A stretch of 64,000 bases of DNA from Desulfosporosinus sp. FKB (GTDB lineage Bacteria > Bacillota > Desulfitobacteriia > Desulfitobacteriales > Desulfitobacteriaceae), in assembly GCF_002196705.1 (NCBI RefSeq), contig NZ_NADJ01000033.1, positions 186,001 through 250,000 of the forward strand, given 5' to 3'. The translations under genes and the position numbers were made by a program. Positions within the stretch are counted from its first letter, which is position 1. Each line of letters starts with the position of its first letter. The notes under the pieces are model-generated. The model had not been told where the DNA came from and did no database searches. It saw only the letters and a list, made by a program, of their open reading frames with translations. This document shows, one piece after another, positions 12,505 through 56,329 of the stretch.

Positions 12505-13083
12505 ATGCTAAAGCAATTTACAAAAGGTTTTGCCATGCTGCTTGTTATGATCGTTCTCACAGGGATTGCTTATCCCTTAGTTGTAACAGGTCTTGCTCAG
12601 TTGTTCTTTCCCCATCAAGCGAATGGTTCTCTTGCTTACAAAAATGGTCAAGTGGTTGGGTCCCAATTAATTGGACAGAATTTTACTGATCTCAAGTATT
12701 TCCAGCCCAGGCCTTCAGCCGCTGGTAAAGACGGTTATGATGCAACAGCATCCGGCGGGTCTAATTTGGGTCCAACGAACAAGGATTTTTTAAACAGTGT
12801 CGCTGAACGTGCCAATACTATTCGTCAACAAAATGGATTAAGCTCAAATCAAGCCGTTCCATCTGATCTTGTAACTGCATCAGCCAGTGGCTTAGACCCC
12901 GATATAACTCCAGAGGGAGCTATGATTCAAGTTTCCAGAATAGCAAAATTACGAAATCTGCCCGCTGAAACTGTTGAAAATCTGGTGCGGCATGACACCA
13001 CTCCGCGTCAATTGGGGATATTCGGAGAGCCTAGGGTTAACGTTTTACGGCTAAACCTTGATCTCGATACCTTGACAAAATAA
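12505..13083 (+). CDS. kdpC: KdpC, accessory subunit of Kdp ATPase
   Basis: 192 residues with one N-terminal membrane helix (AMLLVMIVLTGIAYPLVVTG) and an extracellular domain carrying the family motifs SQLIGQNF, FQPRPSAAG, SGGSNLGPTN and ASGLDPDI. KdpC couples KdpA to KdpB. GAGGAGGGAGT lies before ATG 12505. Last gene of the structural operon. Confidence 0.97.
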   Translation: MLKQFTKGFAMLLVMIVLTGIAYPLVVTGLAQLFFPHQANGSLAYKNGQVVGSQLIGQNFTDLKYFQPRPSAAGKDGYDATASGGSNLGPTNKDFLNSVAERANTIRQQNGLSSNQAVPSDLVTASASGLDPDITPEGAMIQVSRIAKLRNLPAETVENLVRHDTTPRQLGIFGEPRVNVLRLNLDLDTLTK

Positions 13084-13304: not shown

Positions 13305-16007
13305 ATGAACGAGAAACGACGAGTTAACCCCGATGAACTTTTAGCTGATATTCAAGACCAGTCTAAGGGAAAACTAACGGTTTTCCTGGGTGCCGCAGCA
13401 GGTGTCGGTAAAACTTATGCTATGTTAGAAGTTGCCAGGGAAAGACTCTCCGAAGGAATTAAACTCGTGGCAGGATGGGTTGAACCGCATGCTCGGCCTG
13501 AAACGATAGCTTTAATGGAAGGGATTCCTAAAGTTACGCCCAAAGACATTGAGTATCACGACAAGGTCTTGAAGGAAATGGACCTTGATGAACTACTCTC
13601 AATCCATCCTGATATTGTCTTAGTGGATGAATTAGCTCATACTAATGTGCCTGGATCACGTCATCTAAAACGTTACCAAGATGTTGAAGAACTCTTGGCA
13701 GTGGGCATTAACGTTTATACGACGATTAATATTCAGCATGTTGAAAGCTTTAATGATATCGTTGCTAAAATTACAGGAGTAACAGTACGCGAAACAGTTC
13801 CGGACTCGATTTTAGAAAATGCCAGAATACAATTGATCGACATTCCGACAGAGGCGTTAATTCAGCGTCTGGAAGAAGGAAAGATTTATGTTCCCAATCA
13901 AGCGAAACATGCTTTAGACAAGTTTTTTAGGCCGGGTAATATTAATGCTTTACGGGAACTATCCATGCGATTTGCAGCTCAGAGGGTCGATCGGCAGTTG
14001 GAATCTTACATGCGGGTTCACGGCATAGAGGGTCCATGGCCTGCCAGTGAACGGGTCATGGTTTGCATCAGTGCCAGTCCTTTTGGGGAACGGCTGATTA
14101 GAATGGGTAAACGAATTGCCGAAGGCATGAAAGCTGACCTTCTTGTTGTTTACATTGATACACCTTCCAATTTTCTGAACGAAAAGCAAAAGGACCAATT
14201 AGCTAAAAGCTTGCACTTAGCACAAGAATTGAATGCCGAAATCATATCATTAAGCGGTAATGATGTCGTCGAAGAGCTGCTTGAAGTTGCTCAGAAACGT
14301 AATGTAACTCAGATTATTATTGGTAAACCCGGGAATCTTAAATTTAGTGAACGCTTTATGGGCTCGATCGTTGAAAAGGTTCTTAGGCAAAGCCAAAATA
14401 TTAGTGTCCATGTTATACCGGGAGATGGTTTAAAGGCTAGACAAGATCATGAAGTAAGAAAGATAAGTGTAAAAAAAGCCACTAATCTTATTCCGTATGT
14501 GACAACGTTTGTTGCACTGGCAGTTATTACAGTCATAGCGTGGTTAGGAAGTTCTGATTTGGGTCTGGTTAATACCGCTATGCTTTATTTGCTACCCGTC
14601 CTTCTAAGTGCTGGGCGTTACGGAAAAAAGATCGGTGTTTTCACAGCGATTGTATCGGTTATTACCTATGACTTTTTTACAATTCCCCCTGTTTTAACGT
14701 TTACTGTAGCGGATTTGAGGTATCTTATTAGTTTTGGCATTATGATTCTTATAGGCTATTATCTGGGTAATCTGTCAACTCGGTTAAGAATACAAATTAT
14801 GAATTCTCGGCAGCGTGAGTCTCAAACTGCTGCGCTTTATTCTTTAAGCCGTGAAATTGCAGCTGTTTCCGAATTAGACATTGTATTAGAAAGTGTTGTG
14901 AAAAAAGTATCGGACATCATTCAAGGCGAGGTCGTTATCTTAGTTCCGGAAACAAATGGACAGTTAGCTTTACGAGCTAGCTCAAACTTGAAAAGCACAT
15001 TTGACGAAAATGAAAGAGCTGTTGCCGCATGGGTTTTTCAAAATAATCAAATGGCGGGAAAGGGTACGGATACGCTTGGCGGTGCCAAAGGATTTTACCT
15101 GCCCTTAATATCAGAACAAGGGATTTGCGGAGTTCTTGGGGTACAACTTAAGAACTCAGAAAGGTATCTATTATCCGAAAAAAGGAGCTTGCTTGATGCC
15201 TTTGCAAGTTTGACTGCCTTAGCCATCGCTCGAATATCACTGGTCGAAAGAGCAAGAGAGGCTCAGCTATTAAGTGAGTCCGAAAAACTTCGGACAGCAT
15301 TACTCAACTCAATTTCCCATGATTTACGAACTCCGCTTGCCTCAATGATCGGGGCTGTAACAAGCCTTTTAGAGAATGATAAACTCTTCGATACAGCTTC
15401 CAGGCAAGCTCTTCTTCAAACGATCAAAATTGGCGCCATGCGAATGAATAAATTAGTGAACAATTTGCTCGATATGGCCCGACTAGAAAGCGATATGCTT
15501 AAGTTAAACAAGGAGTGGTGTTCGATCAATGAAATTATTAAAGAAGCCATTAAAAGTTTTGATGAAAGTGTTCTGAGCAAGCGAGAAATCGTTTACGAAA
15601 TTTCCAATAAAGATTTATTGATTAACGTTGACTTTGTCTTAATTAAGCAAGTTCTTACCAATCTCTTGGATAATGCCATGAAATATTCTAAACCAAATAG
15701 TCAAATTTATATAATGATTAGAAATAACGAACACCAAGTAGAGGTTTCCGTTCGCGATTGGGGGTTACCGATTCCTCCGGAAGATTTAGAGCATATTTTT
15801 GATAAGTTTTACCGAGTTCGTTCTCCTCGCCAGATTAGTGGCACGGGGTTAGGTTTAGCTATTTCAAAGGGAATCGTTGAACTTCACGGTGGAAGAATAC
15901 AAGCCGAAAATAGTTCAAACAATGGAGGAGTTACTATTTCGTTTTCGATTCCATTGACCGAAATTCCCTCACATATTCCAGAAGAAATAGGAGATTACCA
16001 TGAATGA
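13305..16007 (+). CDS. kdpD: KdpD, potassium/turgor sensor histidine kinase
   Basis: A full-length 900-residue KdpD. Order: N-terminal KdpD domain with Walker A GAAAGVGKT (residues 29-37) and VDELAHTN; a universal-stress-protein-like domain (about 250-370); four membrane helices (about 395-495); a GAF-like domain; HisKA with SHDLRTPL (phospho-His near residue 672); HATPase with DNAMKYS and GTGLGLAIS. It phosphorylates KdpE. AAAGGGAGGA precedes ATG 13305. The stop overlaps kdpE by 8 bp. Confidence 0.97.
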   Translation: MNEKRRVNPDELLADIQDQSKGKLTVFLGAAAGVGKTYAMLEVARERLSEGIKLVAGWVEPHARPETIALMEGIPKVTPKDIEYHDKVLKEMDLDELLSIHPDIVLVDELAHTNVPGSRHLKRYQDVEELLAVGINVYTTINIQHVESFNDIVAKITGVTVRETVPDSILENARIQLIDIPTEALIQRLEEGKIYVPNQAKHALDKFFRPGNINALRELSMRFAAQRVDRQLESYMRVHGIEGPWPASERVMVCISASPFGERLIRMGKRIAEGMKADLLVVYIDTPSNFLNEKQKDQLAKSLHLAQELNAEIISLSGNDVVEELLEVAQKRNVTQIIIGKPGNLKFSERFMGSIVEKVLRQSQNISVHVIPGDGLKARQDHEVRKISVKKATNLIPYVTTFVALAVITVIAWLGSSDLGLVNTAMLYLLPVLLSAGRYGKKIGVFTAIVSVITYDFFTIPPVLTFTVADLRYLISFGIMILIGYYLGNLSTRLRIQIMNSRQRESQTAALYSLSREIAAVSELDIVLESVVKKVSDIIQGEVVILVPETNGQLALRASSNLKSTFDENERAVAAWVFQNNQMAGKGTDTLGGAKGFYLPLISEQGICGVLGVQLKNSERYLLSEKRSLLDAFASLTALAIARISLVERAREAQLLSESEKLRTALLNSISHDLRTPLASMIGAVTSLLENDKLFDTASRQALLQTIKIGAMRMNKLVNNLLDMARLESDMLKLNKEWCSINEIIKEAIKSFDESVLSKREIVYEISNKDLLINVDFVLIKQVLTNLLDNAMKYSKPNSQIYIMIRNNEHQVEVSVRDWGLPIPPEDLEHIFDKFYRVRSPRQISGTGLGLAISKGIVELHGGRIQAENSSNNGGVTISFSIPLTEIPSHIPEEIGDYHE

Positions 16008-16683
16008 GAAAGAAAAACGGATACTTGTAATTGATGATGAGCCTCAGATTCTCAGACTTCTAAAGGTTTCGCTATCCGTACATGGCTATGAGGTATATGA
16101 AGCTAATACTGCTGACGAAGGATTAAGAAAAATAAATGAAACTAAACCCGATCTAATTGTTTTAGATTTAGGACTTCCTGATTTAGATGGTATTGATGTT
16201 CTCACAAAGGTAAGAGAATCCTCGAAAGTACCGGTCGTTGTTCTGACTGCTCGTGAACATGAAAATGACAAAGTCCTAGCGTTTGATTTAGGAGCAGACG
16301 ATTACGTAACCAAGCCTTTTGGTATGGGAGAACTTCTTGCTAGAATTCGGAATGCTCTGAGGCATAGCTATGATACTAGTGACGAAGAAATTTTGAAATT
16401 TGGAAATATAACCATTGATCTAGAGAACCGAGAAGTAAGAACTAATAGTAATCTGATCAAGTTGACACCGACTGAGTATCAATTACTGACCTTGTTAGCC
16501 CAAAATAAAGGGAAAATACTAACGCATCATCAGCTTCTCAGTACGATTTGGGGGCCGCATACAGATTCAAATAGTCACTATTTAAGGATATATATAGGAC
16601 AGTTAAGGAAAAAATTGGAGCATGATCCTTCTGAACCGATTCACATTATTAATGAACCCGGAGTCGGGTATAAATTAGTCTAA
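16000..16683 (+). CDS. kdpE: KdpE, response regulator of the kdp operon
   Basis: An OmpR-type regulator of 227 residues. Receiver domain with IDDEP, the phospho-acceptor Asp56 in VLDLGLPD and the Lys in DDYVTKPFG; then a winged-helix DNA-binding domain (LTPTEYQLLTLLAQN to GVGYKLV). It overlaps kdpD, so the two are co-translated. The predicted target is the promoter before kdpF. Confidence 0.97.
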   Translation: MNEKEKRILVIDDEPQILRLLKVSLSVHGYEVYEANTADEGLRKINETKPDLIVLDLGLPDLDGIDVLTKVRESSKVPVVVLTAREHENDKVLAFDLGADDYVTKPFGMGELLARIRNALRHSYDTSDEEILKFGNITIDLENREVRTNSNLIKLTPTEYQLLTLLAQNKGKILTHHQLLSTIWGPHTDSNSHYLRIYIGQLRKKLEHDPSEPIHIINEPGVGYKLV

Positions 16684-30650: not shown

Positions 30651-30687
30651 GAAGCCCCGATGTTCAGCTTTAGCTGAACGAGTTCAC
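30651..30687 (+). repeat. Dispersed palindromic repeat, copy 2 (TnpB right-end-like)
   Basis: GAAGCCCCGATGTTCAG, hairpin GTTCAGC-TTTA-GCTGAAC, then GAGTTCAC. Identical over 37 bases to the copies at 51977 and 56183. The hairpin plus TTCAC tail resembles the right end and omega-RNA 3' scaffold of IS200/IS605 TnpB elements. Confidence 0.8.
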
Positions 30688-30845
30688 TGTTAATGAAGAA
30701 AGCTTTCCCTCTGAGTTACTTTATTTCTAATATCTTAATCTAATTTTTAGAATCTGGAATTCAGTTCTCTCTGATTTCGAGGAGAGAAGTCTTTAGAAAA
30801 GCATGGCATTAGGCCTTTTCATACATAATAGAATATTCTAATAAT

Positions 30846-30861
30846 TGGCACAATTATTGCT
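30846..30861 (+). promoter_or_regulatory. Sigma-54 promoter of the fumarase operon
   Basis: TGGCAC-AATTA-TTGCT is a perfect match to the -24/-12 consensus. Preceded by the palindrome TAGAATATTCTA. Transcription should start near 30873, so the coding region must begin later than the first open codon at 30845. Confidence 0.92.
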
Positions 30862-42033: not shown

Positions 42034-42435
42034 ATGTTCACCGAACGACAAACAATTCAATACAACGGTATTAACATTCCCAGTATCATAAATATCCCAT
42101 CCAATCCCTATGGCGCAGCAGTAATTGTTCACGGTTATGGCGGATGTAAGGAAGAACAATTAGGACTTGCCTGGCGAGCCGCAGAACTGGGGTTAGCGAC
42201 TTGTGCTATAGATCTGCATGGACATGGAGAGAATATGCTCAATTTAGAGCAGGGAATTTTTTCGGATGTAGAAGCAGCAGTCGATTATTGCCGTCGCTTT
42301 GCATGTCAAAAACTTTCTCATGCAGACACGAGACTTAATTTTATTGAAGGAGTACTACATAGCGATATATTTTTTCTTGAGGCTACACTCTTGATTGTAA
42401 TTAATCAATTGAAAGAGTGGTTTTGCTTACAATAA
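42034..42435 (+). pseudogene. Truncated alpha/beta hydrolase
   Basis: The first 90 residues match an alpha/beta hydrolase (AAVIVHGYGGCKEEQLGLAW, AIDLHGHGEN). The nucleophile elbow region is missing, and the frame jumps to a C-terminal piece (FFLEATLLIVINQLKEWF). An in-frame internal deletion has removed the core, so it cannot be an active hydrolase. Confidence 0.7.
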
Positions 42436-42513
42436 CGTTCTGGCGTATTTAAAAAGTCGGTTTAGTATAAATTGGGATTTCCATTAGCAATTGTCGAAAG
42501 AAGGAGAAAGTGT

Positions 42514-43377
42514 ATGGAATGTAAGCTGGATAAAATAACAGTTAATTATAAAATTTGCGGTGAGGGTCGTCCATTGCTTATGATTCATGGATATTATCCA
42601 GATCATCGATTAATGGAAGGGTGTATGGAACCTATATTTGCGCAACGGAGTGGGTGGCAAAGAATTTATATAGATTTGCCTGGAATGGGAGAAACAAAGG
42701 GCGAAAGCTGGATTAACAACTCCGACGATATGCTTAAAGTAGTAGCGGGTTTTGTAGAAAAAGTAATCCCTAAGCGGCACTTTTCCGTCGCAGGTGAATC
42801 TTACGGCGGATATTTAGCCCAAGGATTAACAGCGATCAAAGGTGAGCAAATTGATGGGATGGTTTTAATCTGTCCGGTAGTTGTTGCTGACAACTCAAAA
42901 AGGAATTTACCAAAACATCATATTTTGGTAAATGACCCAGAATTAATGGCTTCCTTGACTAAGGAAGCTGCGGATGAATTTGGATCGATGGCTGTTGTTC
43001 AAAACCAATGGAATTGGGTGCGCTATAGAGATGAAATTATGCCGGGACTTATGACTGCAGATAAGATGTTTTTGCAGAGGATTCAAAATCATGGCTATGA
43101 GTTTTCCATGAATATCCTGAAGCAGATGAAACCTTTCTACAAACCTGTCTTAATTTTAACCGGACGTCAGGATTCAAGTGTTGGCTATCGTGATGCCTGG
43201 AACATTGTTGAAAATTATCCAAGAGGAACATATACAGTATTAGATATGGCAGGACATAACTTGCAAATTGAGCAGGAGACTCTATTTAATGCTTTAGTCA
43301 GCGATTGGTTAAATAGGATAGAGATGGAGGACGATAAGCCCTTGACGAGGAGAAAAGATCTTCATATAAAAAAATAA
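42514..43377 (+). CDS. Alpha/beta hydrolase
   Basis: 287 residues. PLLMIHGYYPDHRLM (oxyanion), IYIDLPGMGETKG, nucleophile elbow GESYGG, acid in LTGRQDSSVGY and catalytic His in DMAGHNLQIEQ. ATG 42514 follows GAAGGAG. Third hydrolase-type gene in a row; the group may be one operon under the MarR protein. Confidence 0.88.
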   Translation: MECKLDKITVNYKICGEGRPLLMIHGYYPDHRLMEGCMEPIFAQRSGWQRIYIDLPGMGETKGESWINNSDDMLKVVAGFVEKVIPKRHFSVAGESYGGYLAQGLTAIKGEQIDGMVLICPVVVADNSKRNLPKHHILVNDPELMASLTKEAADEFGSMAVVQNQWNWVRYRDEIMPGLMTADKMFLQRIQNHGYEFSMNILKQMKPFYKPVLILTGRQDSSVGYRDAWNIVENYPRGTYTVLDMAGHNLQIEQETLFNALVSDWLNRIEMEDDKPLTRRKDLHIKK

Positions 43378-43416
43378 TGGGGGCCCTATCTGGGCTTCCA
43401 TTTTTTTTGAGTTAAC

Positions 43417-44027
43417 TCAACTATTATCAGAGAAATATTTTCTTACAGTTCGTGATACTTTACTTTGGCTAATTTTTAAGGCATTTGCAACTTTATAAGA
43501 ACTTTTAAGTTCGCAATAGAGTTTAATTATTAAATCCTTTTCGGTTTCTTTCAGAGGGTAATTGCGAGGAAACTGCTCTTGTTTCGGGTTTTCATTAATT
43601 ATGTCTTTGTTGTGAGTATGAGTATTGATCTCAGGTGATTTACTGCATAAAAGTTTAGGAGGCAAATGTTCAGGAAGTATTATTTGATCAGAAATAGTAA
43701 TAACTAAACGTTCAACTAAGTGTTCCATTTCTCTTATAAGTGTTCCATTTCTCTTATGTTTCCCGGCCATGAGTAATTCTGAAGACATTCTAAGCTTTTT
43801 TGATCAAATTGATGCACGACGCCATACTTCGTATTAAATTTGTTTAAGAAAAAATATAACAGAGAGATAATGTCCTCGGTTCTTTCCCGTAAGCAAGGGA
43901 TTTCGATTTCGACAACATTTAATCTGTAATAAAGGTCGCTTCGGAACTTTCCTTTTTCGATGAGCTCCGGCAAGTTACAGTTTGTAGCTGCGAGAATTTT
44001 AATATCAACGGTTTTGTGTTCTTTCTC
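43417..44027 (-). pseudogene. Sigma-54 activator gene, broken by a 20-bp tandem duplication and 5' deletion
   Basis: The minus strand encodes the end of an AAA+ sigma-54 activator (VDIKILAATNCNLPELI, FRSDLYYRLNVVEIEIP, NYSWPGNIREMEHL) and, in a different frame, REMEHLVERLVITISDQIILP to a Fis/TyrR-type helix-turn-helix (ANALKISQSKVSRTVRKYF). The break is an exact tandem duplication of 20 bp (43718-43737 and 43738-43757). Removing one copy restores the frame. The N-terminal half, including Walker A, is gone, replaced by BCCT sequence near 44020. Confidence 0.85.
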
Positions 44028-44964
44028 TTTTTATTATGTATCTATTTTGCTTTCGGGCCATACGGTAAAAAACGGTTAGGAGAAGAAAAACCTGAGTTCA
44101 GCACGATGTCCTGGTTAGGAATGATATTTACTTCTTTTACTATATCCAGACTCCGCCTTTCGGAATTGCAGCAAACAGCAAGGAGTCTTATCAATGGGCA
44201 GCAACTTATCCTCTATTTCACTGGGGATTTACAGCTTGAGCTATGAATACAATTTTTGGTTTGGTCTTTGCGTATCTGTTCTTTGTCAAGAAAAAAGATA
44301 TTGTCAGGCCTAGTACTGCCTGTGAGACATTATTTGGAGAGCGTTTAATTAACGGTTGGTTAGGTAAATTAATTGACGTTTTATTTATTGTCGGCTTTGT
44401 CTGTGGAGTAACTACCTGTATAGGGGTTAATTTTCCAACGATTATAGGACTTGTGACAAAACTATTTGGTTTTAAACAAAGTCTCGGTTTGAGTGCGGTA
44501 GTCATTATGTCCTGGCCTATTTTATGGCACTTTTATTGTATACAGGCCTGAAAAAAGGTGTGAAATTTCTCAGCGATTTCCGGGTATATTTTGGTTTTGG
44601 TATTCTTGCAGTGATCTTACTATTTGGGCCGACATCATATAACCTCAACTCGTTTACCGATAGTTTTGGACTATTAATGCAAAATTTTGTACACATGAGT
44701 TTGTACACTGACCCATATTATAAATCGGGTATGCCTCAAGGGTGGGCGATTTTTTATTGGGCTTGGTATTTTGTTCTGCAAAAGGGAATTGTTCCTATTG
44801 CTGATATTTTAGCGAAAAGCGGCCAGGGCGATGCGATAGTTGCCATATGGTCCCAGCTTTCCTTTGCCGGCATAATGCTTGTAATTCTTTTAGTTTACGG
44901 TTATATAGTTATGCAGACGCTTCTTAATGGAGCTACTGTTAAACATAGCGATTACAATTTGTAG
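44020..44964 (+). pseudogene. BCCT (betaine/choline/carnitine) transporter remnant
   Basis: Pieces of a BCCT transporter in order: YFAFGPYGKKRLGEEKPEFS; then after a deletion TPPFGIAANSKESYQWAAT and FHWGFTA; TGA at 44237 where the family has Trp; then VRPSTACETLFGERLINGW; a frameshift near 44525; then TGLKKGVKFLSDFRVYFGFG and GWAIFYWAWYF; and a further internal deletion before the end. At least four lesions. Such transporters accompany betaine methyltransferase genes. Confidence 0.85.
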
Positions 44965-45066
44965 TTCAATAAGATGATGTTTGGCACCAAATTTGCAAAG
45001 TAATTAATGAAAGATTTAACATTAGATTCTGTTTTTCTGAACAAAGAAATGAGGAGGAACGATTAA

Positions 45067-45339
45067 ATGAGTGACTTTGCTCAATTAGCTCAAACAGTAT
45101 TTAAGGGAAATGCTGATGCAGTGAAAGAAATGCCCCATAATTTGGTTGATCAAGGTGTTAACCCAATGGATATTATTTCGCAAGGCCTTTTGGCTGGGAT
45201 GGATATCGTGTCTCCGAAATTTAAAGCGGGCGAGATGTTTGTACCGGAAAGTTTGGCTATGGTTATTGAAGAGCATAGAACTATTAAAAAAGTTGGCCGA
45301 AGCTTGTCTTATTTGTACGGTCATCGTCTCAATATTTAA
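45067..45339 (+). pseudogene. Corrinoid protein (MttC/MtbC-like), N-terminal fragment
   Basis: 90 codons. MSDFAQLAQTVFKGNADAVK, then IISQGLLAGMDIVSPKFKAGE and MFVPESL match the N-terminal helical domain of methyltransferase corrinoid proteins. Family likeness stops at about residue 66, and the cobalamin-binding DXHXXG domain is absent. AGGAGG precedes ATG 45067. Confidence 0.82.
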
Positions 45340-45425
45340 TAATTCAACTTCAATAATACTGAAGTCAACCCTGATTAACGAGTGACCATGGTATTGACCA
45401 TTTTAGCTTTAAAGAAGGAGATAAG

Positions 45426-46229
45426 ATGACTCGTCTTACAGAGAACGATCTTGCTGGTATTGATCAAAGCTTGCAAGAGCATGATTTGGAGCTTCTTCAG
45501 ATCACAGGGTTAACGCTGCGCAGAATTGCCTGTCAGGCTGCTGGGGCGTCTGAAGATCAATTTGATTTGCTCCGAATGAAGACAGCAGTAATTCCTATTA
45601 CTGCCGGCGAAGGGATTATTTCAAATTTTGCAAACTCAGTCCGAAGTATTATTAGTTACCTGGGGTATCCTGCTTATGTTACTGCTCATCGTGATATTTC
45701 TGGAATCCATGAAGCCATAACCGGAGGAGCAGAACTCTTGTTTATGGCCGATGACCAGCGCTTTATCGCCTTTAACGTTGTAACAAAGAGTGTTGTCGAT
45801 AATGGGGCGGCAACGGCACGCGGCTATGTGACAGCTTTAAACAACATGTGCGGAGGTTTGTGCGGGCAAAACGTTTTGGTCATTGGAGCAGGGGAAGTTG
45901 GCAGCGTGGCCATCTCAACCCTCAAAGAGATTGGTGCTAAGGCTGCGGTGCATGACATTGATCCCTTGAAGGTCAGAAATTTAGAAAAAACAGATGTTCA
46001 AGTCTTAACGGACCTCAGAAACGAATTACCTAAGTTTAAATATATTGTAGACGCATCACCTCAAGCAGCTTTTTTAGACCTGGCTGACCTGCATCCTGAG
46101 GTAATGATTGCCGCCCCAGGTATTCCGCTGGGTTTAACGACCAATACCTATGCGGCTTTGCAAGGACGGGTGGTTCATGATCCTTTGGAAATTGGTGTTG
46201 CAGTGATGTTAGCCATGGCAATTATCTAG
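45426..46229 (+). CDS. pylD: PylD, pyrrolysine biosynthesis dehydrogenase
   Basis: 267 residues. PylD oxidises the terminal amine of L-lysine-N-epsilon-3R-methyl-D-ornithine, and cyclisation gives pyrrolysine. Seen: N-terminal helical LTENDLAGIDQSLQEHDLELL, VIPITAGEGIISNFANSV, then a Rossmann domain (VLVIGAGEVGSVAISTLKEIG) and IAAPGIPLGLT. Length is normal for the family and no lesion is visible. AAGGAG precedes ATG 45426. It heads pylD-pylC-pylSn. Confidence 0.92.
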   Translation: MTRLTENDLAGIDQSLQEHDLELLQITGLTLRRIACQAAGASEDQFDLLRMKTAVIPITAGEGIISNFANSVRSIISYLGYPAYVTAHRDISGIHEAITGGAELLFMADDQRFIAFNVVTKSVVDNGAATARGYVTALNNMCGGLCGQNVLVIGAGEVGSVAISTLKEIGAKAAVHDIDPLKVRNLEKTDVQVLTDLRNELPKFKYIVDASPQAAFLDLADLHPEVMIAAPGIPLGLTTNTYAALQGRVVHDPLEIGVAVMLAMAII

Positions 46230-46337
46230 ATTTTTGTTTTTACACGGGGGGTGGTAAGGATCGCATAGATTCCGGAAGACTATTTTAACTGGCTTAATTA
46301 TCCAAAAAGTGCCATGTGCAAGCAGCAGGTGAGATGA

Positions 46338-47480
46338 ATGAAAATCGTTGTTGTTGGAGGAAAACTTCAGGGTTTAGAGGCTGCCTACTTAGCGAACCAG
46401 GCAGGCTGGGAGGTTGCCTTAGTTGACAAGGATTGTTTTGTACCGGCCCAGGGATTCTGTCATGAATTTCATTGCCTGGATGTTATACGTGACGTTGACA
46501 AACTAAAACATATTGTCCACAGTGCCGATTTTATAATTCCCGCACTTGAAAATTGGTCAGCTCTTCATTCCTTACAGGGAATCTCTCTTGCTGCGGATGT
46601 TCCTTTGGCTTTTGATTGTCAGGCCTATGAAATTAGTTCATCAAAAATCAGTTCGGATAAACTATTTCGTGAAAATAACATTCCTGCGCCGGCCTACTGG
46701 CCGGAAGCCAAACTGCCTCTCATTGTGAAGCCGTCAGGAAAAAGCGGCAGCGAGGGCGTAAAAAAGATATCCTCCAGTATGGAGCTGGCAGCTTTTTGTC
46801 AAGCAACCGATCTGATAGAGAATTGGGTAGTTCAAGAGCATCTGTCCGGTCCCTCTTACTCCCTGGAAGTTATGGGCTTTAAAGGTAGCGTAATAAGTTA
46901 TCAAGTGACGACGTTGGAAATGGATGCTTTGTTTGACTGTAAACGTGTTTTGGCTCCTGCGGACTTACTTCCTGATCTACAAGAAGAATTAAAGATTATG
47001 GCTTCAAAGGTTGCGGGTTTAGTTAACCTGACGGGTGTCATGGACATCGAAGTCATCAATGACAACGGGATACTTAAGGTTCTGGAAATTGATGCGCGCT
47101 TGCCAAGTCAAACCCCAATTACTGTTTGGCATTCTACCGGTGTTAATATGTTGGAAGATTTACATACGGTATTTGTGAAGGGCCAGCTGCCTGTTGCAAG
47201 GAGTAGTAGCGTTCCCAAACAGGTGATTTTCGAGCATATCAGAGTCGGAGCGGAAAAACTTGAAGTCCTCGGTGAACACATTATGGCAGTAACAGAACCT
47301 TTGCAGCTAATTTCGGATTTTTGGGGAGCTGATCAGGCCATAACGAATTATCATTACGGACGTTCCCAATGGGTCGCAACGTTAATTTTTAAGGGGGAAA
47401 ATTGGGCGGAAGTCTCAGGCAAGCGGCTGGAAACGATGAATTGTCTTTGCCGCTATTTTCAAATATCAGAATATCGTTGA
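46338..47480 (+). CDS. pylC: PylC, pyrrolysine biosynthesis ATP-grasp ligase
   Basis: 380 residues. PylC joins 3R-methyl-D-ornithine to the epsilon amine of lysine using ATP. N-terminal KIVVVGGKLQGLEAAYLA, then ATP-grasp parts LIVKPSGKSGSEGVKKI, WVVQEHLSGPSYSLEVMG and VMDIEVINDNGILKVLEIDARLPSQTP. Intact frame of normal length. Begins 108 bp after pylD; the gap holds no clear gene. Confidence 0.93.
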   Translation: MKIVVVGGKLQGLEAAYLANQAGWEVALVDKDCFVPAQGFCHEFHCLDVIRDVDKLKHIVHSADFIIPALENWSALHSLQGISLAADVPLAFDCQAYEISSSKISSDKLFRENNIPAPAYWPEAKLPLIVKPSGKSGSEGVKKISSSMELAAFCQATDLIENWVVQEHLSGPSYSLEVMGFKGSVISYQVTTLEMDALFDCKRVLAPADLLPDLQEELKIMASKVAGLVNLTGVMDIEVINDNGILKVLEIDARLPSQTPITVWHSTGVNMLEDLHTVFVKGQLPVARSSSVPKQVIFEHIRVGAEKLEVLGEHIMAVTEPLQLISDFWGADQAITNYHYGRSQWVATLIFKGENWAEVSGKRLETMNCLCRYFQISEYR

Positions 47481-47498
47481 TTCCATACCTTTGGAGGG

Positions 47499-47870
47499 AT
47501 GATGATGGCTGATCACGTATCAGGCAAACGATTTTATCGTAAGAGAGTTGATTTTTTCAGACTTCTCAATAAATTAAAGCTTTGGCCGTCCCAGGCGGGG
47601 ATTTTACATGGGGTCAAAGCTATTGTGGAAAAGGGCGGTTATGCTGAAGTGACAACCCACTGTAATCACGTTATGATAGTGCGCAATTCCAAACGCAGTC
47701 GAGCTGCACGCTGGCTGCGCAACAAATGGTATTTCGCTGTTTGTTCAGATTGTAAAATCCCAGAATGGAAACTGCGAAAATATTCCCAGAGTTTTTTCAC
47801 CCAACATTATGGTTCAAATCTTTTAAAAAGTACTGAAAACGAAAGTTCATTTGAAAGGGGGGGCTTATAA
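47499..47870 (+). CDS. pylSn: PylSn, N-terminal tRNA-Pyl-binding protein of split pyrrolysyl-tRNA synthetase
   Basis: 123 residues. In Bacteria, PylS is split; PylSn binds tRNA-Pyl and PylSc is the catalytic part. Seen: RVDFFRLLNKLKLWPSQAG, ATTHCNHVMIVRNSKRSRAARWLRN-type basic stretch and CSDCKIPEWKLRKYS. TTTGGAGGG precedes the ATGs at 47499-47510. pylSc, pylB and pylT are not in this window. Confidence 0.9.
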   Translation: MMMADHVSGKRFYRKRVDFFRLLNKLKLWPSQAGILHGVKAIVEKGGYAEVTTHCNHVMIVRNSKRSRAARWLRNKWYFAVCSDCKIPEWKLRKYSQSFFTQHYGSNLLKSTENESSFERGGL

Positions 47871-47913
47871 CCGATTTTCGGTCATATTTAAGTGTCCTAA
47901 ATAAAATTTTGGA

Positions 47914-48085
47914 GGTGAAGAGATTGAGAACTATGGTTCAAGCGGGTCCTCCAAAATCGACGGATTTGGACTTAATGGTTTCTCTGAGGAAGAATTATAT
48001 GCCATTCACCGTTCAACTCTGGAGGTTTTAGAACATACGGGCCTTAAAGTTCAGTGTAAAGAGGCCTCGGAGATCTTCGCCGAAG
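47914..48085 (+). pseudogene. Trimethylamine methyltransferase family (MttB), N-terminal fragment
   Basis: Read in one frame: [20 protein letters not shown], then [20 protein letters not shown]. This is the N-terminal signature of the MttB/MtgB family. There is no proper start codon in this frame, and after about 55 residues the sequence changes to eutA. The amber codon position of MttB lies far downstream and is lost, so it cannot be told whether the gene needed pyrrolysine. Confidence 0.8.
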
Positions 48086-48478
48086 GTATGTCTTGGAAAA
48101 GCCTTCTGAAACAGTAAGGGCTACAGCTATTGGTACGGGTACCCAGTCCGTCAATTTAAGCGGAAGCACAATCCATGTAAGGGAGCAGACACTGCCTTTA
48201 AGAAATGTGCTGGTGGTTGCACCCTTCGCTGCTTCTCAGAAATATTGGAGGACATGCGCAGCTATCTTGATGATGGCAGACCGCTTATTTTGACCTTAGC
48301 GGATGATTACGGCAAGGTACTGGGGCAATCGCTTGAAGCCCAATCTCTTGGCACTCTGGAAGTGATTTGTATTGATCAGGTTGAGGTTGGCGAATGTGAT
48401 TATATCGATATTGGCAAACCCTTAATGGGGGGACGTGTTGTACCGGTAATTATGAAGACTTTGGTATTTAATCAGTGA
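48082..48478 (+). pseudogene. EutA-like (ethanolamine ammonia-lyase reactivase) C-terminal fragment
   Basis: [20 protein letters not shown], then NLSGSTIHV and LPLRNVLVV, a frameshift near 48230, then EILEDMRSYLDDGRPLILTL, ADDYGKVLGQSLEAQ, EVICIDQVEVG and DYIDIGKPLMGGRVVPVIMK. This is the end of EutA, which reactivates the B12 enzyme ethanolamine ammonia-lyase. The upstream part is replaced by mttB sequence. No other eut gene is nearby. Confidence 0.78.
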
Positions 48479-48740
48479 TTACCAAACCTTGCGTATTTAG
48501 TCTTTAAATGCACATCTTTATAGACTCGCCGAAAGCAAAGCAACTTTTGGCGTTTTATCAACTAGATGGCCTGAAGATTAGGGGTTGTCGGACTATTAAT
48601 TATGAGTTACAAGTAGTAAAATGATGGTAAATTTCCTTTTGTATCTCGAAATATATTCTCTTGTAGAAAAGGACCAAGCAATATTTAACAGTGGAGCCTT
48701 GCCTTGAAGTATCAGTGCCCTGGAGTTAGGAGATTGAAGG

Positions 48741-49460
48741 ATGTTCTTGAGAAAATTAACGTTCTTAAATGATCGGATATCAGATGAACGGTCCTATCCA
48801 TTTTCCATACCTGCATTTAGAGGATTAGAATCTATTGATTTTAAAAGCAATGTGACGTTTTTTGTTGGTGAGAATGGTACGGGCAAATCAACGTTAATGG
48901 AAGCCATCGCTTATAAATGTGAATTTAACACAGCTGGGGGAGGCAGGAATAACGTTTATGAGATGGCGGCATCGGAAACGGCCTTAGGTGACTTTATCAG
49001 GCTTTCCTGGGCACCTAAAATCGCAAATGGCTTTTTTCTCAGAGCAGAAAGTTTGTATAATTTTGCCTCACATATTGATAGTCTTGGCCCAGAGGCATAT
49101 CAATCCTATGGAGGTAAATCTCTTCATGCCCAATCACATGGGGAGTCATTCCTTTCTGTTTTTGCCAATAGGTTTGGAAAAAGAGGTATATATCTATTGG
49201 ATGAACCTGAGGCAGCTCTTTCCCCGATTCGTCAACTGAGTTTGCTGAGTATCATTAAAGAATTGGAACGAGACGGCCAATCTCAGTTTATCATTGCTAC
49301 CCATTCTCCAATAATCTTAGCTTACCCGGGAGCACGGATTCTCAATTTTGACACCTCACCGATCACCGAGATAGACTATGAAAATACTTCTCATTATCAA
49401 ATTACGAAAGGTTTTATGACTAATCGAGAACTTTATTTGCGGAAACTATTTGAAGAGTAG
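48741..49460 (+). CDS. AAA family ATPase, ABC-ATPase-like
   Basis: 239 residues. Walker A VGENGTGKSTL, signature-like HGESFLSVFANRF, Walker B GIYLLDEPEAALS and the switch His in IIATHSPII. It is a soluble single-domain ATPase of the COG3910 type, with no transporter partner beside it. Function unknown; relatives are found with defence or repair genes. GGAGATTGAAGG precedes ATG 48741. Confidence 0.9.
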   Translation: MFLRKLTFLNDRISDERSYPFSIPAFRGLESIDFKSNVTFFVGENGTGKSTLMEAIAYKCEFNTAGGGRNNVYEMAASETALGDFIRLSWAPKIANGFFLRAESLYNFASHIDSLGPEAYQSYGGKSLHAQSHGESFLSVFANRFGKRGIYLLDEPEAALSPIRQLSLLSIIKELERDGQSQFIIATHSPIILAYPGARILNFDTSPITEIDYENTSHYQITKGFMTNRELYLRKLFEE

Positions 49461-51967: not shown

Positions 51968-52013
51968 ATCCCCACCGAAGCCCCGATGTTCAGCTTTAGC
52001 TGAACGAGTTCAC
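51968..52013 (+). repeat. Dispersed palindromic repeat, copy 3 (TnpB right-end-like)
   Basis: ATCCCCACC joins directly to the 37-nt unit (51977-52013), identical to copies 2 and 4. The block CCCCACCGAAG is shared with the elements at 54110 and 56114. Confidence 0.8.
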
Positions 52014-52139
52014 TGTTGGTCTGTAATTATAGTTATGACAGTTACGGAAAATGAAATTCAATTCGTAGATGTACCATGGTTACACGTCTTTCTTCCGCAA
52101 AAAGCATAATAAGTTAGAGTACTGAAAGAAGGAATTTAA

Positions 52140-53240
52140 GTGCAATTTCGCTCTGTTCTGTCCGGATTGGACGATATATACAAGAAACTGAATGAGGGAA
52201 AACGTTTGGATCGCGCTGATGGCGTAAGTTTATTGCAAACAAACAACCTCACAGGGTTAGGCTACTTAGCCAATGAGGTACGTCATGCTAAAGTTGGTGA
52301 TCAAGTTTATTTCAATAACAACGCCCATATTAACTATAGCAATGTTTGTAAAGTGCGCTGTGGTTTCTGTGCCTTTGGTAAAGATTTAGATGAACAAGGT
52401 GCTTATACCATGAGCATTGAACAGGTTGTGGAGCGTGCTAAACATTTTGCTGCCTTGGGTGCTAATGAAATTCATATGGTAGGAGGAATTCATCCTGAAC
52501 TGCCTTTCTCTTTCTATGTAGAAATGCTGAAAAAAGTCCAGGAAAGCGTACCTCAAGTCAGCATTAAGGCATTTACTGCCGCCGAATATGATTACTTCGC
52601 TCAATTAGAGGGAGTTCCCGTAGAAACTATTCTTAAAACCTTAGCACAGGTTGGTCTCCGTTTTGTTACCGGCGGGGGAGCTGAAAACTTTAGTCAGCGT
52701 GTGCGTGATATCATCTGCCCGGGTAAATTAAGCGCTGAGCGTTGGTTAGAGATTCATCGGATTGCTCATCAATTAGGGATACCCACAAATGCGAATATGC
52801 TCTTTGGAATAATTGAAACGGATGAAGAGTTAATTGATCACCTTCTGGCTCTACGTGAGCTGCAGGATGAAACCGGCGGCTTTTACGCCTTAATTCCTAC
52901 GGCCTTCCATCCCAAAAATACAAAGTTTGACTATTTGCCCCAGGCCAGTGCTGTGCGGACGTTAAAGGTTATTGCCGCAGCACGCCTAATCCTGGATAAC
53001 TTTAAATACATTAAAGCCTATTGGGTATCTTCCGGCTTACAGCTTGCGCAGATGTGCCTCAATTTTGGCGCCAATGACCTGGACGGAGTAGTCCGGGAGG
53101 AAAAGATTTACCATACTGCCGGTTCCTCAAGTCCGCAAGAACAAACTGAACAAGAACTGATTCGTATGATTAATGAAGTTGGCTTAACAGCCGTTGAACG
53201 AGATACCTTTTATAACGTTCGGAAAGTCTATGAACCCTAA
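52140..53240 (+). CDS. mqnE: Aminofutalosine synthase (radical SAM), menaquinone biosynthesis
   Basis: 366 residues. Radical SAM cluster motif CKVRCGFCAFG, preceded by NNNAHINYSNV as in MqnE. Also EIHMVGGIHPELPF, FTAAEYDYFA, VTGGGAENFSQRVRDI and ALIPTAFHPKNT. MqnE makes 6-amino-6-deoxyfutalosine from 3-[(1-carboxyvinyl)oxy]benzoate and SAM. GTG start 52140 with AAAGAAGGAA upstream. It stands alone, without other mqn genes in view. It supports menaquinone-based respiration. Confidence 0.95.
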   Translation: MQFRSVLSGLDDIYKKLNEGKRLDRADGVSLLQTNNLTGLGYLANEVRHAKVGDQVYFNNNAHINYSNVCKVRCGFCAFGKDLDEQGAYTMSIEQVVERAKHFAALGANEIHMVGGIHPELPFSFYVEMLKKVQESVPQVSIKAFTAAEYDYFAQLEGVPVETILKTLAQVGLRFVTGGGAENFSQRVRDIICPGKLSAERWLEIHRIAHQLGIPTNANMLFGIIETDEELIDHLLALRELQDETGGFYALIPTAFHPKNTKFDYLPQASAVRTLKVIAAARLILDNFKYIKAYWVSSGLQLAQMCLNFGANDLDGVVREEKIYHTAGSSSPQEQTEQELIRMINEVGLTAVERDTFYNVRKVYEP

Positions 53241-56177: not shown

Positions 56178-56182
56178 TCACC

Positions 56183-56219
56183 GAAGCCCCGATGTTCAGC
56201 TTTAGCTGAACGAGTTCAC
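56183..56219 (+). repeat. Dispersed palindromic repeat, copy 4 (TnpB right-end-like)
   Basis: The same 37-nt unit as at 30651 and 51977, identical. It directly follows the inverted block at 56114-56177. Confidence 0.8.
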
Positions 56220-56329
56220 TGGATAGAAATTAAGGATTTTTACTTGAGAAGAGGAAAAATTGAGCTTGCCAAAAGAAGGGATTTAAAATAGTGAGCTAGA
56301 ATTCATTAATTAGATACCCCTGCCGCTGA

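Follow-up and report, generated by a model that had tools for sequence, protein, structure and literature searches.

Two pyl cassettes of different ancestry, decayed in different genes, probably combine into one complete pyrrolysine route in Desulfosporosinus sp. FKB

RESULTS

Three intact pyl genes lie within a degraded methyltransferase island

The window, by which we mean the whole 64,000-nt stretch of DNA analyzed here (positions 186,001–250,000 of contig NZ_NADJ01000033.1 of Desulfosporosinus sp. FKB), contains on its plus strand three neighboring pyrrolysine (pyl) genes, which are pylD (45426–46229, 267 aa), pylC (46338–47480, 380 aa), and pylSn (47499–47870, 123 aa). The original prediction, that these three genes are undamaged, was borne out by the positions of their open reading frames, by the NCBIfam cut-offs that their products passed, and by the preservation of conserved residues. 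The scores were 243 bits for PylD (TIGR03911, cut-off 150), 407 bits for PylC (TIGR03909, cut-off 248), and 117 bits for PylSn (TIGR03912, cut-off 51). Among the alignment columns with a conservation of 95% or more in the remaining rows, PylD missed 0 of 25 and PylC 0 of 51, and PylSn missed one of 24; this single change, T98S, was also present in its nearest relative, at locus L090. The alignments with known structures were near full length, covering residues 2–263 of PylD (PDB 4j43/4q39) and residues 3–371 of PylC (PDB 4ffl). Hence, the stops, frameshifts, and lost conserved residues that mark relics were seen in the surrounding genes and not in pylD, pylC, or pylSn. The window pylD and pylC were 51%–58% identical to those of L090, the nearest relative compared, and at this distance the synonymous sites in the dN/dS comparison were saturated or nearly so.

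The three genes are located in a degraded methyltransferase/pyl island of ∼6.2 kb (42432–48675), which is absent from the sister species G014. The blastn comparison showed that the flanks are continuous there, with window positions 42431 and 48676 corresponding to positions 13688 and 13790 of the G014 locus L140. The G014 matches adjoining the island were 82% (131 bp) and 91% identical on the left side and 93% identical on the right side, and when inspected by eye the homology reached slightly further into the island, to ∼42480 and ∼48590. The relatedness of the two genomes is also seen in a G014 protein that is 98% identical to the window protein encoded at 52140–53240. In a second relative, G008, no alignment to the left of the island was obtained.

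The genes for the regulator, BCCT transporter, corrinoid protein, and MttB around the pyl genes had been described as all broken, and tblastn, family matches, and reading frames agreed with this description. The remnant of a sigma-54-type AAA+/HTH regulator (43417–44024, minus strand) has lost its N-terminal part and contains an in-frame stop near 43735. It is 49% identical in tblastn to an intact activator on another contig, C31, and keeps lid and HTH pieces, of which the lid scores under its Pfam cut-off. The remnant of a BCCT-family transporter (44013–44964, plus strand), which was identified by tblastn against an intact BCCT gene on C31 and by family matches of its pieces, is truncated at both the N and the C terminus, changes frame at ∼44135 and ∼44524, and has an in-frame stop at ∼44237. 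The adjoining N-terminal parts of the regulator and the transporter are both lost. Downstream from pylSn, an N-terminal remnant of an MttB-family gene of ∼50 aa (47923–48087, plus strand; tblastn 55% to residues 7–55 of a C31 MttB) continues into an EutA-family remnant in two frames (48093–48479, plus strand), which matches profile positions 303–350 and 395–475 of 475. When searched apart against Pfam PF06277, the two EutA pieces gave E-values of 4.5e-13 and 5.7e-26. The stretch 47923–48479 thus comprises two broken genes, and the supposed broken corrinoid gene at 45067–45339 is a fusion of two genes, as described below.

A manual count gave ∼11 breaks in the rest of the island, whereas pylD, pylC, and pylSn, 2319 bp in all, had no break, a contrast that is only descriptive because these three genes were picked for being intact. 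The breaks counted were a truncation shared by the regulator and transporter; the stop in the regulator; in the transporter gene, two changes of frame, a stop, a loss of internal sequence, and a truncated 3′ end; the mttC–pylSc, pylT–pylB, and mttB–EutA joins; and the EutA frame change. An open alpha/beta hydrolase gene (42472–43377) is also located inside the stretch absent from G014, and a gene for an AAA_15/AAA_21-type ATPase (48741–49460) lies directly to the right of the island, in DNA shared with G014. Elsewhere in the window, a dispersed repeat of ∼45 bp occurs at 30651–30695, 51970–52015, and 56179–56221; it is also found in two relatives.

Remains of pylSc and probable scraps of pylT and pylB are detected beside the intact genes

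The claim that pylB, pylSc, and pylT are not present here stood for intact copies in the window, but the end of pylSc and probable scraps of pylT and pylB remain. The open reading frame at 45067–45339 (plus strand) begins with ∼60 codons from the start of an mttC-type corrinoid protein gene, joined in frame with the last ∼28 codons of pylSc. The MttC part is 52% identical to a C31 corrinoid protein (E 1.1e-18), and the PylSc part is 70% identical over 30 aa to the C terminus of L090 PylSc (E 1.9e-8). In the gap between pylD and pylC, a probable 5′ part of pylT (46246–46272, plus strand), which stops short of the anticodon, was defined by its best local alignment to the tRNAPyl of locus L092, with a score that was equaled in 2 of 300 shuffles. 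It is followed by what is probably the last ∼20 codons of pylB (46275–46337, plus strand; EDYFNWL... to TGA), directly upstream of pylC. The score of a 7-residue PylB C-terminal motif was reached in 32 of 5000 shuffles; this motif was picked after the failure of a longer, 14-residue motif, for which the gap gave no support, as 1303 of 2000 shuffles scored as high. The longer motif failed because a stop codon, at the presumed deletion junction, falls within its length.

The possibility that this gap is plain intergenic DNA was rejected. The statistical support for the pylT-like and pylB-like scraps, taken by themselves, is modest, and they were accepted mainly because the order pylD, pylT, pylB, pylC matches that at L090. 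This locus, from another genus of the same family, has the intact order pylSc-pylD-pylT-pylB-pylC-pylSn-mttB, and the window cassette reads as the same order from which pylSc and pylT–pylB were apparently removed by deletions.

A sigma-54-type promoter-like site precedes the window genes

A sequence resembling a sigma-54 (−24/−12) promoter, TGGCAC-N5-TTGCA (TGGCACCAAATTTGCA; 44982–44997, plus strand), is located ∼70 bp upstream of the mttC–pylSc fusion, and hence upstream of pylD, pylC, and pylSn. When the 102-bp intergenic stretch containing it was shuffled 20000 times, no such site arose in any shuffle. The whole window contained two exact matches to the pattern, the other at 30846–30861, and five with at most one mismatch, compared to 2.03 expected. 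With the same tolerance, no match was found in L017 or L090, and none of the four matches in L016 was upstream of pyl or mtt genes. A looser scan of C31 gave sites matching 11 of 13 positions ∼60 bp upstream of mttB and ∼100 bp upstream of the BCCT gene, among the eight listed in 20 kb. The C31 genes are flanked by two intact sigma-54 activators. The window promoter has only a broken regulator of its own, and these two activators could act on it.

A second pyl locus contains the genes that the window lacks

The original prediction left two alternatives, namely that the rest of the system and a pyrrolysine-containing enzyme lie elsewhere in the genome, or that the pathway is being lost. The first of these agreed with the genome search, in which another pyl locus was found: contig C31 carries intact copies of pylT, pylB, pylSn, and pylSc and an mttB gene containing TAG. 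The minus-strand genes of this locus are a 492-codon mttB with one TAG, mttC, two TAG-free MttB-family genes, a second corrinoid protein gene, a pterin-binding methyltransferase gene, pylT, pylB, a broken pylC, a shred of pylD, pylSn, and pylSc. PylB (C31 15450–16550) scored 532.8 bits with a cut-off of 348.2, and PylSc scored 401.5 bits with a cut-off of 178.15; each is the only such protein above its cut-off in the genome. A tRNA-Pyl gene with anticodon cta (CUA) was located at C31 16871–16942 by ARAGORN, which scanned the window, positions 1–40000 of C31, and 20 kb of contig C27. Of the parts whose presence in the genome had been in doubt, pylB, pylSc, a CUA tRNA, and an mttB with in-frame TAG were thus found on C31, and the genome-wide absence of pylB, pylSc, or pylT, which together with relaxed selection on pylD and pylC had been named as a sign that the window genes are relics, was not observed. 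The C31 proteins were also well preserved, with conserved columns missed at 0 of 57 in PylSc, one of 81 in PylB, and 0 of 23 in PylSn. The whole-genome search found two pylSn genes, on C31 and in the window, which differ from each other.

The C31 pylC is broken. Residues 1–69 and 115–273 are in different frames and are followed by a stop, with residues 70–114 and those from 274 onward lost. After it, a 40-residue shred of pylD was aligned to the PylD of locus L063 with a score of 126, while the best of 500 shuffles scored 51, so that C31 must once have carried a fuller cassette. In the whole-genome search, the only pylD above the cut-off and the only intact pylC were those of the window, and since their C31 counterparts are broken, the window genes look like the sole source of these two steps. 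Overall, the genome has at least one intact copy of each of pylB, pylC, pylD, pylSc, pylSn, pylT, mttB, and mttC. A single complete cassette, which is usual if not essential, was not found, as C27 has pylD and pylC, and C31 has pylSc and pylB with a broken pylC.

The C31 mttB is constrained beyond its TAG codon

The single TAG of the C31 mttB is at codon 328. In all seven aligned mttB genes, that of C31 included, there is one internal stop, which is a TAG in the same alignment column. The dN/dS of the C31 gene compared to two relatives was 0.05 before the TAG and 0.07–0.10 over the 164 codons after it, values which average the whole divergence, most of it perhaps predating the breakage of the C31 pylC and pylD. 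Such purifying selection past the TAG is as expected if UAG is still decoded.

The two loci have different ancestries

To place the two loci, quick maximum-likelihood trees with SH-aLRT support only were built for PylD (76 rows), PylC (70), PylSn (64), PylSc (62), and PylB (69). The trees cover the fetched loci, with other pyl genes, such as those of G005 and G016 and further copies in G003, G015, and G026, falling outside them; five loci duplicating others and named-record rows shorter than 150 aa (60 aa for PylSn) were left out. The window PylC and PylSn were placed beside L090, with supports of 99 and 95, respectively. The window PylD belonged to an eight-row group (support 98) made up of L090, G035, and MAGs labeled Syntrophomonadaceae, Peptococcaceae, and others, with a support of 89 for its pair with L090. 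Among the loci in these trees, no further Desulfosporosinus locus was located within the window's group. The C31 genes were placed elsewhere. The C31 pylC piece and PylSc were each grouped with G032, Sporomusa acidovorans, and one Desulfosporosinus locus (supports 100 and 98), PylSn was grouped more weakly with the same loci as the other C31 genes (support 90), and PylB was in a six-row set (support 99) whose nearest rows were L063, L060, L059, L069, and L107. The window and C31 genes are thus in different clades, and neither locus is a recent copy of the other.

In the window's clade, the pylD of G035 was matched in two separate pieces with pylT adjoining (L092, 8897–9683); the fetched contig gave no pylB or pylC match, and the G035 draft is 78% complete.

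Division of the pathway is rare in the genus

In a survey of 29 genomes of the genus, four protein genes (pylB, pylC, pylD, and pylSc) were scored and assigned to loci by a 12-kb linkage rule. The genes were found in 21 (pylB), 20 (pylC above cut-off), 19 (pylD), and 20 (pylSc) genomes. At least one of the four was present in 21 genomes, of which 16 had all four in one locus and 18 had pylB, pylC, and pylD in one locus. The three exceptions to the latter were this genome and the drafts G005 (79% complete) and G016 (85%). In G015 and G026, pylB, pylC, and pylD are together and pylSc is in another locus. Genome searches of G014 and G008, the nearest relatives as judged by one protein, gave no match to PylB, PylC, PylD, PylSc, or MttB, which suggests that the trait is dispensable and that its present state may be short-lived.

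The survey also showed other variations of pyl loci. Several pylSc genes can occur in one Desulfosporosinus genome (three in G021, two each in G006, G011, and G026), and the within-genome PylSc pairs L064–L065 (G021), L070–L071 (G006), and L085–L086 (G011) are 49%–53% identical. At loci L060, L062, and L077, pylB and pylD were found but pylC was not matched, L069 has a broken pylD beside open pylC and pylB, and the G027 locus L074 has two tRNA-Pyl genes (12873–12944 and 16044–16115).

DISCUSSION

We propose that two pyl cassettes of different ancestry met in this Desulfosporosinus lineage, and that each of them then decayed. The C31 cassette would have kept pylT, pylB, pylSn, pylSc, and the TAG-containing mttB with mttC, and lost pylC and pylD. 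In the window cassette, pylD, pylC, and pylSn would have survived, and pylSc, pylT, and pylB would have disappeared along with the methyltransferase genes of that cassette. In the resulting route, PylB from C31 would make 3-methylornithine, from which PylC and PylD from the window would complete pyrrolysine. The C31 tRNAPyl would be charged by PylSc together with PylSn, and the UAG at codon 328 of MttB would be read as pyrrolysine, which would permit trimethylamine demethylation. The window genes may be expressed from the surviving sigma-54-type promoter, activated by the sigma-54 activators of C31. Judged by gene content, neither cluster seems able to support an expanded genetic code alone, and we assign a probability of about 0.77 to the view that the two cassettes, decayed in different genes, together give one complete pyrrolysine route.

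It is unlikely, in our judgment, that the trait is instead dying, with both loci being relics at different stages and with pylD, pylC, and pylSn still open only for lack of time. Genes have been lost at both loci, the regulator, transporter, and methyltransferase of the window are gone, and G014 and G008 either lost or never had PylB, PylC, PylD, PylSc, and MttB, all of which would agree with such a course. However, the three genes that survive in the window include both of those that C31 lacks, none of the 76 conserved columns of the window PylD and PylC taken together is altered, and every pyl gene, as well as mttB and mttC, is present in one or more intact copies. The dN/dS of 0.07–0.10 past the mttB TAG, as an average over the whole divergence, also argues against simple decay.

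Much less probable is the explanation that the breaks on C31 are assembly or sequencing errors, so that C31 is in fact complete and the window genes are a spare set. This is a 40-contig draft genome, and short-read assemblies can collapse repeats, but the several separate losses and frame changes in one contig could not be produced by single-base errors. Moreover, the two pylC genes are only 53% identical over 159 residues, too different to collapse, and the assembly contains no other pylD beyond the window's. A repurposing of the window PylC, PylD, and PylSn unrelated to MttB, for example for another lysine-derived product or with PylSn as a tRNA-binding regulator, is hardly credible: the window genes are severed from their own pylB and pylSc, and the extra PylSn would be superfluous if that of C31 works, but all of the conserved positions scored in PylC and PylD are retained, their normal partner PylB is present in the genome, and we know of no other use of these three proteins.

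It seems somewhat more likely than not that complementary decay of the two unrelated cassettes turned a mobile, self-contained expansion of the code into an interlocked one, in which PylB of one lineage would work with PylC and PylD of another. Neither locus could then be lost without ending UAG decoding, and neither would transfer the trait alone. Such interlocked cassettes would represent a stage at which code expansion becomes fixed in a host genome. With this arrangement, it can be tested directly whether PylB, PylC, and PylD work together when drawn from lineages of about 50% sequence identity, as well as how an expansion of the genetic code is kept or lost. It also serves as a warning that UAG may still be decoded in a genome whose pyl operon is broken, and that with either locus annotated alone the species would be called Pyl-negative.

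Pyrrolysine, the rare 22nd amino acid, and one other are the only additions to the standard set of genetically encoded amino acids. The textbook bacterial cassette is that of Desulfitobacterium hafniense, pylT-pylSc-pylB-pylC-pylD-pylSn. The genes described here resemble intact bacterial cassettes, such as L090, L068, and L074, in their gene families, in the split PylS (PylSn and PylSc), in the Pyl-type MttB, and in the corrinoid partners. They differ in that no locus holds all four protein genes, as one locus does in 16 of the 21 pyl-bearing genomes of the genus, and in that the two halves come from two lineages. The genomes G015, G026, G003, and G007 are similar to this one in having several pyl loci with partial losses, but in each of them pylB, pylC, and pylD are still together in at least one locus.

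The pyl genes have been described as forming a mobile cassette that spreads by lateral transfer (PMC3941956); here, such a cassette appears to have been dismantled and rebuilt from two sources. Among the matches listed in the open-licence literature, none dealt with a pyl pathway split over two broken loci that differ in ancestry. A comparison can be made with the two-system genomes in PMC9071458, a survey which covered archaea; these genomes are archaeal, and two archaea are named there as the sole organisms known to have two distinct PylRS enzymes. As in the present case, they have two pyl sets per genome, with genes lost or moved after the inferred duplication to which the two systems are ascribed. 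According to the same paper, however, those archaea have two synthetases per genome, HMET1 has two working synthetase/tRNA pairs, and the origin is duplication, whereas in this genome one synthetase/tRNA pair was found, the two sets have two ancestries, and different steps were lost from each set. Taken singly, the parts are unremarkable members of the pyl families; it is their arrangement that is unusual.
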